From positions 1 through 64,000 of the forward strand of contig NZ_GL883837.1 of the NCBI RefSeq assembly GCF_000205165.1: DNA of 64,000 bases, written 5' to 3'. Under the pieces are notes generated by a model, which ran no database searches, had not been told where the DNA came from, and saw only the letters and a program-made list of their open reading frames with translations. Shown piece after piece: positions 105-3,368 of this stretch. Source of the stretch: Paraprevotella xylaniphila YIT 11841 (GTDB taxonomy: Bacteria > Bacteroidota > Bacteroidia > Bacteroidales > Bacteroidaceae). How positions within the stretch are numbered: position 1 is the stretch's first letter; every line of letters starts with the position of its first letter. Position numbers and translations under genes: made by a program.

Positions 105-1031
105 TTATACCCCCATATCCTCCCGAAGGATTTGGGAGAAATTCCGCGCCCCGACATCGGCACTCAAATGATTCCCGTCATAAAAATCATCATCTGAAAA
201 ACGCGTGTCACCTAAATAATCCAACCAACGGACATTAGGATATTCAGAAGACAGTTCGGACAATCCGTTACGGAGTCGGCTCAACGCACAGGAATCCAAC
301 CTCGCATAATAATCTTCATGCACAGGCGGCACCACTATCCACAACTTTATTCCCTTTTCCCTGCACATCTCTGCCAAACGGCATATCCGTTCCATATTGC
401 GGCCATAGCGCACCCCGTCCTTGTCCGACTGTACCAAGCCATTGTGCCCGGCAACCACAGAAGCAATCTTCTCCCGCCAATCAGCAGCCCGTTCCGACAA
501 ATCGAAGCTGTGGTCAAGCCCCAATGAGTCGCACAGCATAGTCTGCCCGTGCAACAGATAGAACTTCGACCATTTTCTCAATGAACGGGCACCGAGGGAC
601 AACAATTCACTATGCGGCAAAAAATCATCTTCCAAATGGATATCCAAATAGATGCCATGCTCCACAATACTCCATTCATCCGTCTCCACGTCATCGTCAC
701 TCCACAACGTATGGTAACACACTCCCAATATCACGTTTTCAAGCTCCGGCATATATTCCTGATATTGCCCGAACATTTGGAGGTTAAAACGCAACCATTG
801 ACCCGAAACAGCCAGATTATAAGTCCCGGACGGGAAACAAGAAGGAGCAATCCCGCACTCTGCCACGGAACTGCCCAAGACCAAGGTCTTGATATGCCTC
901 CCTTGTTCTTCCATCAAACTCCGTTTGAAAGCATAAGTATTCGGTACACGGCGCAGCATGCACTCCATGCCTATGGCCAAAGCCAATAAGAAAGAAGAAA
1001 AGAACAATACATTCACAATGAACCGTTTCAT
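105..1031 (-). CDS. SGNH-like protein, partner of the adjacent MBOAT O-acyltransferase
   Basis: A 308-residue protein with one N-terminal membrane segment (residues 4-22), so probably anchored in the inner membrane with its domain in the periplasm. A GSS motif at 53-55 resembles the SGNH block I serine, and D285/H288 in the C-terminal DGNH motif resemble the block V Asp-His pair. This is the pattern of DltD/AlgJ-type proteins that work with MBOAT acyltransferases to move acyl groups onto exported glycans. It starts 13 bases after the MBOAT stop, so the two are almost certainly cotranscribed. The glycan substrate cannot be told from sequence. The SGNH assignment rests on motifs only. Confidence 0.65.
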   Translation of the reverse strand: MKRFIVNVLFFSSFLLALAIGMECMLRRVPNTYAFKRSLMEEQGRHIKTLVLGSSVAECGIAPSCFPSGTYNLAVSGQWLRFNLQMFGQYQEYMPELENVILGVCYHTLWSDDDVETDEWSIVEHGIYLDIHLEDDFLPHSELLSLGARSLRKWSKFYLLHGQTMLCDSLGLDHSFDLSERAADWREKIASVVAGHNGLVQSDKDGVRYGRNMERICRLAEMCREKGIKLWIVVPPVHEDYYARLDSCALSRLRNGLSELSSEYPNVRWLDYLGDTRFSDDDFYDGNHLSADVGARNFSQILREDMGV

Positions 1032-1044
1032 GACTTCTTATTAT

Positions 1045-2486
1045 TTAAAATTGGAAATAAATGAACTCTTCCTGTTGCCCGGACAACAAGAACGTCGCAA
1101 TGAAAACCACGTAATAAAGCAACCAACGTACAGCCCTGTACTTAAACCAACCACCGGCACCGATTTGCAACCCGTGCTGCTTACCCCTCTGCAACCACTC
1201 GACACATAAGAGGATGCCTATATAAATCAACGGATCATTCCCATGGGCCGGAAGCCTGAACGTGAAATGTGTAAACATCCTGGCAATATATTCCCATGCC
1301 TGCCCTATCGTCTCGGCCCTGAATATCACCCAACCGAGAACGACAAGCAAGAATGTCATCAGCATCTGTAAGGCCTCTTTTACCGTAGGCAATATGCGCC
1401 CCTCGGCCACACCGTCCACATGTTTACGGTTCTTCCCGAAATAAAGCAAGGGGAAGAATAGCATGGCATGGTACGCCCCCCAACACACGTATGTCCAGTT
1501 AGCCCCGTGCCAGAATCCACTGACCAGAAAAATCACAGCCGTATTGCGCATGACTTTCCACCTCGCACAACGACTTCCTCCCAAAGGTATGTAAATATAA
1601 TCACGAAACCATGTGGTCAAGGAGATATGCCAACGCCTCCAAAATTCGGCAATGTCGCGTGAGAAATAAGGATAGCTGAAATTACGCATCAAATCCACCC
1701 CGAAAAGGCGTGCCGTACCGATAGCTATATCGGAATATCCCGAAAAGTCGCCATAAATCTGAAACGTGAAAAACAATGCACCCAAGAACAGTTGCATGCC
1801 GTCGGCGGTCTGGTAATTGGCAAAAATCTCATTCACGGCATCGGCACAATTATCTGCCACGACCATCTTCTTGAACAGCCCCCAAAGAATCTGCCGCATC
1901 CCGTCTACTGCCGCCGCATAAGAGAATACCCTGGGCTTTAAAAACTGCGGAAGGAGGTGGGTCGCCCTTTCTATCGGACCGGCCACCAACTGCGGAAAAA
2001 AACTGATAAATGCAAAAAAGGCCACCACATCGTGGGTAGGAAACATTTTACGGCGATACACGTCAATCGTATAACTCAAAGCCTGGAACGTATAGAAACT
2101 GATGCCCACCGGCAAAAGGATGTCCCGGGTCACCCAGTCTACTTCCCAACCCAACATTCGGAAAAAAGCTGCAAAGTTCTCTCCAAAAAAGTTATAATAT
2201 TTAAAATATCCCAGAATAAGAAGGTTCAATAGGATATTTCCTCCACATATCCATTTCCGCCTCAACGGATACGTATCATACTTTGCCAATAAAATGCCGC
2301 TGAAATAACTACAGAATGTAGTCAACGCCATTAGGAACAGAAACCGCCAGTCCCACCATCCATAGAAAACATAACTGGCCGCAACTATAAAAATATTCTT
2401 ACACTTACCCCCCCCCCTAAAATAAGCCAATACACTGTAAATACAAGAGGGAGGAAGAACAAAAACTCAATCGAATTAAATAACAT
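1045..2486 (-). CDS. MBOAT-family (AlgI/DltB-like) O-acyltransferase, frame broken at a G10 tract
   Basis: Multi-pass membrane acyltransferase. The main frame (1045 to about 2430) has the MBOAT core: WRRWHIS followed by TTWFRDYIYIPLGG, then SGFWHGANW with the presumed catalytic His. That frame has no ATG upstream, only a TTG. The normal family N-terminus is present in another frame, from ATG at 2484-2486 (MLFNSIEFLFFLPLVF). The two frames meet exactly at ten consecutive G (2408-2417 read on the minus strand). Eleven or eight G would join them into a protein of about 480 residues, the usual family length. As sequenced, the ATG frame stops soon after the tract. Either the gene is phase-variable and OFF, or the run length is a sequencing error. 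It lies directly upstream of its SGNH-like partner and downstream of murI. Confidence 0.8.
2408..2417 (-). repeat. G10 homopolymer inside the MBOAT coding region
   Basis: Ten C on the plus strand, ten G in the sense of the gene. It lies about 23 codons after the proper ATG, in the linker between the first and second membrane segments. Its length puts the start and the body of the gene in different frames. Confidence 0.9.
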
Positions 2487-2522: not shown

Positions 2523-3368
2523 TTATTCCAACACCACGCGCTCGGCTTCCACATGTTGACGAAGGAAAATGGAAGCTGATTCCGTAAATTTGTCAGGGCT
2601 TTCCGTGGTCAGGAAACGGCACGTGCCGCTTTGCGTACACAACGTTTCTATTTCCGTATGGCGTTGCAGGTAATCCTTCAGGCTATAAGCCACGTACTCT
2701 CCCTGGGGGACGATACGCACATTACGAGGAGTGTATTTCAGAATCTTGTTCAGCAACAAGGGATAATGCGTACACCCCAAAATAATGGTATCTATCGCAG
2801 GGTCTTTCCGGAGCAGGTTGCCGATGCGCTTTTCCACAAAATAATCGGCTCCGGGTGAATCGTATTCGTAATTTTCCACTAATGGCACCCACATGGGACA
2901 AGCTTCCCCGCTCACGGCAATGTCGGGATAAAGTTTCCGGATTTCCAACGGGTAGGAACCGGAACTGATGGTACCTGATGTGGCTAAAATTCCTACGTGA
3001 CGGCTATGGGTTATCTGCCCGATACATTCTGCCGTAGGACGGATGACACCCAACACACGACGCGTCTCCCCCTCCATTTTGGGGAGGTCGTTCTGCTGAA
3101 TGGTTTTCAAAGCTTTGGCCGAAGCCGTGTTGCAAGCCAATATCACCAGATGGCAACCTAAGTCGAAGAGTTTCTGCACGGCTTCACGCGTAAACTCATA
3201 TACGACCTCGAACGAACGGGTCCCGTAGGGTGTGCGGGCATTATCCCCCAAATAAAGATAATCATACTGCGGCATCAACTGGCGGATCTCATGCAGGATG
3301 GTCAATCCGCCGTAACCGGAGTCGAACACTCCGATAGGCCCCGGCTTTTCAGTTAAAGCAACTTTCAT
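2523..3368 (-). CDS. murI: Glutamate racemase
   Basis: Interconverts L- and D-glutamate to supply D-Glu for peptidoglycan. The 281-residue length is normal for the family. Visible motifs are FDSGYGG near the N-terminus (15-21), ACNTAS with catalytic Cys79, and GCTHYPLL with catalytic Cys199. Its start (ATG at 3368) overlaps the stop region of the preceding OmpH-like gene by 4 bases, so translation is probably coupled. It is last in the envelope-biogenesis run that begins upstream with uppS and bamA. Confidence 0.97.
   Translation of the reverse strand: MKVALTEKPGPIGVFDSGYGGLTILHEIRQLMPQYDYLYLGDNARTPYGTRSFEVVYEFTREAVQKLFDLGCHLVILACNTASAKALKTIQQNDLPKMEGETRRVLGVIRPTAECIGQITHSRHVGILATSGTISSGSYPLEIRKLYPDIAVSGEACPMWVPLVENYEYDSPGADYFVEKRIGNLLRKDPAIDTIILGCTHYPLLLNKILKYTPRNVRIVPQGEYVAYSLKDYLQRHTEIETLCTQSGTCRFLTTESPDKFTESASIFLRQHVEAERVVLE

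Follow-up and report, generated by a model that had tools for sequence, protein, structure and literature searches.

A ten-base G tract splits an MBOAT O-acyltransferase gene of Paraprevotella xylaniphila and is a probable slipped-strand switch of glycan acylation

The window analysed here, a stretch of 64,000 nucleotides from Paraprevotella xylaniphila YIT 11841 (contig NZ_GL883837.1), carries an MBOAT O-acyltransferase gene that is broken at a run of ten G (Table 1). A gap of 13 bases parts the stop of this gene (1045) from the next ATG (1031), which opens an SGNH-like gene, while murI lies 36 bases upstream. The MBOAT and SGNH genes come after a uppS-bamA-skp-murI group (gene names taken from the translations), a neighbourhood that is uninformative on the identity of the acylated glycan. 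The murI-MBOAT-SGNH order is also found in a sister genome (G011), where the MBOAT gene is 84% identical and intact. The same pairing of an MBOAT with an SGNH protein underlies AlgI-AlgX and PatA-PatB, two systems that O-acylate glycans (PMC9558356). Scans for sigma-70-type promoters and repeats around the MBOAT gene gave nothing notable above shuffle level.

Table 1. Features at the MBOAT locus, in window coordinates
Feature	Position	Strand	Remarks
SGNH-hydrolase-like partner gene	105..1031	-	Membrane helix at the N-terminus; motifs GSS and DGNH; DltD among the nearest folds
MBOAT gene body	1045..2430	-	Open frame that begins at TTG 2430 and crosses the tract; O-acyltransferase of DltB fold
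G10 tract	2408..2417	-	C10 on the plus strand; TAA directly 3' on the G strand; point where the differing frames of MBOAT start and body meet
MBOAT gene start	2418..2486	-	ATG + 23 codons (MLFNSIEFLFFLPLVFTVYWLIL); conserved first helix
murI (glutamate racemase)	2523..3368	-	Directly upstream of the MBOAT gene

The plus strand holds exactly ten C at the tract, and it is here that two reading frames join. Translation from the ATG at 2486 gives MLFNSIEFLFFLPLVFTVYWLILGGGVSVRIFL and then a stop, for a product of 33 residues, and the frame of the body is open from the TTG to the stop (461 aa). It is the length of the tract that sets the reading frame: any length of 3n+2 places start and body in a single frame of 480 residues, and ten is out of frame. 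The sequence-only reading had held that the G10 run breaks an MBOAT gene and that eleven or eight G would give a full-length protein of about 480 residues, and both statements were borne out. The in-frame TTG could serve as an alternative start, a use not evidenced here, and would then yield a protein that lacks the first helix.

The MBOAT body matches the Pfam MBOAT family (PF03062, E 6.5e-23), and its solved relatives by sequence are DltB proteins (E 1.1e-27). A structural model of an intact relative (L027, 75% identical) finds its best fold match in DltB, followed by PORCN and HHAT, and the MBOAT alignment contains an invariant WHGANW block with the conserved catalytic histidine. These matches agree with the initial assignment to the MBOAT O-acyltransferases. 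The equivalog for DltB proper (D-alanylation of teichoic acid, TIGR04091) is missed, at 160 bits against a cut-off of 375, and the protein is, by sequence and model, an MBOAT of DltB fold but not DltB itself by the NCBI cut-off. The SGNH-like gene has no good family match; its alignment places GSS near residue 53 and DGNH near residue 285, behind the membrane helix, in keeping with the GxS and DxxH motifs of SGNH enzymes. Its predicted structure (mean pLDDT 70, with residues 114-180 poor) has its top fold matches among SGNH enzymes or hydrolases and DltD. Together with the 13-base gap, these motifs and folds uphold the proposal that an SGNH-like partner lies immediately downstream.

The position of the tract within the protein is also as had been supposed, namely in a non-conserved linker. 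In the model of the intact relative, the first helix is predicted to span residues 5-22 and the second residues 26-40, with the tract corresponding to residues 23-25, in a loop that is variable in the alignment. As the tract would code for the loop between the first two helices, an out-of-frame length would remove either the first helix or everything beyond it. In nearly all close MBOAT relatives, a MLFNSxxF start is joined directly to the same body; the relatives read straight through the point of the tract, and the two MBOAT halves are therefore one gene.

A homopolymer at this site was absent from all relatives examined, comprising 80 genome loci and members of the genus (including G011 and L027); one locus (L080) has a G5 near the site and no long run. 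In G011, the aligned stretch codes for KSRLHR and is equal in codon number to the present gene read in frame, so that the tract looks like replaced linker sequence and not like an insert. Since the exact site is without a homopolymer in relatives, the MBOAT tract appears to be young or species-specific. The search for a homopolymer in relatives had been put forward in the sequence-only reading as a check on phase variation, and no species representative has one at this site. This weakens the claim of a switch at the site, although a young contingency tract would appear alike. By itself, the MBOAT site proves little, and it is the genome-wide set of tracts that decides. The comparison across species drew on one assembly per species. 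For variation within the species, the flank of the tract was scanned in viral contigs and had no match, and a plasmid search recovered only 60-80% relatives.

The restriction of both tract and break to this one species would suit a recent, fixed frameshift in a gene on its way to becoming a pseudogene, with the tract as a mere bystander. We regard this as decidedly improbable, as the 461 codons of the body carry no second lesion in the form of another stop or shift, the MBOAT motifs are kept, and the partner gene and synteny are retained. The dN/dS value against G011 gives a purifying signal, but synonymous sites are saturated and a recent loss therefore cannot be dated by it.

Throughout the whole assembly, there are 47 runs of seven G, 19 of eight G and 15 of at least nine G, the last made up of nine G9, three G10, two G11 and one G12 (six runs of G10-12). 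Markov models of order 4 and 5, built from the window, lead one to expect approximately 2 runs of at least nine G and approximately 0.3-0.4 of at least ten. Models of lower order expect approximately 10 (order 1) and 2.5 (order 3) runs of at least ten G, and the excess is thus clearest for the longest runs under higher-order models and less clean under the lower orders. The G10 of the MBOAT gene lies inside a gene and belongs to a length class in excess of the higher-order expectation, as a long repeat at a contingency locus should. That the gene breaks exactly at a rare type of tract, one in excess in this genome, is a further argument against a fixed frameshift.

Of the 15 tracts of at least nine G, 13 are inside or ahead of genes for the envelope, glycans or glycan sensing. 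Six of the 15 split the genes in which they occur. Besides the MBOAT gene, these are a family-4 glycosyltransferase gene, two hexapeptide acetyltransferase genes and the genes of two hybrid two-component sensors, which combine Reg_prop propellers with histidine kinase, receiver and AraC domains. In-frame tracts are found in the genes of a Wzc-type kinase, a T9SS plug protein, a Big_2-domain protein and another glycosyltransferase, as well as in two acyltransferase-3 genes; still other tracts stand upstream of the genes for a small putative lipoprotein and a T9SS-tail protein. One tract lies inside a UvrD-type helicase gene, and some of the G9 tracts, such as this one, may be chance runs.

Four of these tracts occur at orthologous positions in a sister species (G001), and three of the four differ in length. 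The first sensor gene has a G12 and is split in P. xylaniphila, whereas the tract is G11 and the gene intact in the sister, with an open frame of 1378 codons; the second has a G11 and is split here, whereas it has a G9 and is intact there (1369 codons). The sensor tracts lie at L107:4000-4011 and L111:4004-4014 in the present genome and in L152 and L149 of the sister. An acetyltransferase tract is G11 here versus G10 in the sister, and one upstream tract is G9 in both. The site of the first sensor tract reads G6 A G2, in frame, in G011, and orthologs of this sensor in two further genomes (G007 and G012) are without a run. A homopolymer in a related species is therefore seen at these four tracts and not at the MBOAT site. 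On the sequences compared, this is the pattern that would be expected for contingency tracts that are gained, kept with shifting length, and lost. Elsewhere in the genus, G tracts either split or lie in frame within acyltransferase-3, glycosyltransferase, pyruvyl-transferase and HsdS genes, and the split cases in sister species include acyltransferase, glycosyltransferase and HsdS genes.

The orthologous tracts also bear on the reading of G10 as an assembly or base-calling error, in which case the true length would be in frame and the gene intact, with a tract that is perhaps still somewhat unstable. The source assembly is a draft of 87 contigs, misreading of G-tract lengths is a known problem (PMC9187656), and several very long G runs of sister assemblies lie at contig ends or beside N runs. 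Yet relatives have mixed sequence at the site, which an error in length would not turn into a G10, and six genes of the genome are split at such tracts, two of which are intact in the sister with the same tract at another length. An error thus seems unlikely. It is also conceivable that slippage occurs in expression, with RNA polymerase or the ribosome slipping on G10 to make a fixed fraction of full-length protein as a dosage device. The G10 is a plausible slippery sequence and the two frames meet at it, but the orthologous tracts vary in DNA length and frame state between species, which programmed slippage would not need, and we give this reading very little weight.

Other G runs of this kind are found in genes for the cell surface and for sugar sensing, both in this genome and in its sister species, and two of them are position-matched in opposite frame states; on these grounds a switch is the most likely reading. 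The MBOAT locus is probably a slipped-strand contingency (phase-variable) locus that would switch the O-acylation of an exported glycan. Phase variation as first proposed for this gene is made likely by the tracts of the genome and genus, some of them position-matched with another length, and is weakened at the site itself, where relatives have no homopolymer. In the proposed mechanism, replication slippage in the G tract would shift its length by about one base. At a length of 3n+2, full MBOAT would be made; at other lengths, including the ten of the assembly, translation from the ATG would stop early, here seven residues past the tract. The full protein is proposed to hand acyl groups through the inner membrane to the neighboring SGNH protein, the partner that would then attach them to a glycan, either exported or periplasmic, on the model of DltB-DltD, AlgI-AlgX/J and PatA-PatB. 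A switching population would be mixed for the acyl decoration of its glycan. The MBOAT tract is one of a set in the genome, most of which concern glycans, acyl transfer or glycan sensing. It is inferred here that the tract varies in length within the species and that expression and glycan acylation change with it; the sequences themselves show the structure of the locus and the pattern among species.

The tracts share more than their length. Directly 3' of the run, on the G strand, TAA follows 36 of 76 tracts of at least nine G taken from the genus (L107-L118, L149-L208 and window 2408-2417), whereas only 2.2% of the G4-7 runs within these stretches have it; the tracts are non-independent where species share them, which inflates the statistical significance, but the effect is large. 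The MBOAT tract belongs to this TAA class, and the likeness of its 3' flank to that of other switch-like tracts is another point against a fixed frameshift. TAA occurs after sense, antisense and intergenic tracts alike, which rules out selection for an in-frame stop as a full account of it. Base composition is ruled out as its cause by the low frequency after G4-7 runs. Upstream of the tract, TTAAC or GTTAA is enriched in the TAA class only. In the P. xylaniphila genome, Gn-TAA is found in 8 of 15 tracts and the mirror pattern in none, and across 295 genomes of the order, Gn-TAA outnumbers the mirror pattern by 162 to 71. We suggest, tentatively and with more doubt than confidence, that the G tracts of the genus go beyond slippage-expanded runs in sharing a DNA motif (Gn-TAA, often with TTAAC or GTTAA shortly upstream, in any gene direction), that the motif points to a sequence-specific process of seeding or keeping the tracts, and that glycan decoration and sensing in gut Bacteroidales are under the control of a poly-G phasome, dispersed and motif-bound.

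Most of what is known of phase variation in gut Bacteroidales concerns the inversion of DNA. The capsule loci of the order, where invertible promoters give phase variation of surface glycans (PMC3090145), share with the present case their taxonomic order and the variation of a glycan, but depend on site-specific inversion and not on slippage. On slippage in Bacteroidales, the open full-text literature searched yielded one suggestion, for a run of four C in B. fragilis YCH46 (PMC3090145), and no report of poly-G contingency loci in this order. Elsewhere, poly-G contingency loci occur in large numbers per genome in Campylobacter jejuni (e.g., cgtB), Neisseria and Helicobacter (PMC6437147, PMC6321876). 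The MBOAT locus is like these in having a G tract inside a surface-glycan gene, in the frame being set by tract length, and in the multiplicity of loci per genome; it differs in phylum, in that the switched gene is an MBOAT, and in that the mixing of tract lengths is predicted here. In Bifidobacterium breve, a pilus switch consists of two frames parted by a G tract, of which G11 and G12 forms coexist in culture (PMC9187656). Here, too, the host is a gut commensal with frames parted by a G tract, but the B. breve switch concerns pili in an actinobacterium and the present one a glycan acyltransferase.

Phase-variable O-acetylation has been described for H. influenzae oafA, S. Typhi oafB and the E. 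coli K1 capsule (PMC9558356, PMC3090145, PMC11868660), and the on/off acylation of a surface glycan proposed here would be similar in kind. The oafA and oafB enzymes, however, are of the acyltransferase-3 family, which is unrelated to MBOAT; the switching of oafB is epigenetic, and that of the K1 gene depends on heteropolymeric repeats. With DltB-DltD, AlgI-AlgX/J and PatA-PatB, the locus shares an MBOAT with an SGNH-type partner, and we know of none of these systems that is phase-variable.

Confirmation of the switch would mean that slippage in this genus turns on and off not only surface acylation and capsule-type glycosyltransferases but even the hybrid two-component sensors of glycans, and short-read assemblies would then report such genes as broken, with misleading annotation and pangenome counts as a result. 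The poly-G switching of a glycan-sensing regulator may perhaps be more novel than the MBOAT case.

Among the other G tracts of the genus, runs of G16-G23 occur in L181 (near a contig end), L159 (beside N runs) and L174, and may be assembly artefacts. In G015, a type I restriction specificity gene (HsdS) is split at a G10 (L186:2000-2009), a possible phasevarion. Finally, intergenic tracts with the arrangement GTTAAC or GTTAATT, Gn and TAAT recur in several sister species (L166, L203, L199, L182, L188 and L190), those of L166 and L203 being orthologous, and are possible promoter-spacing switches.
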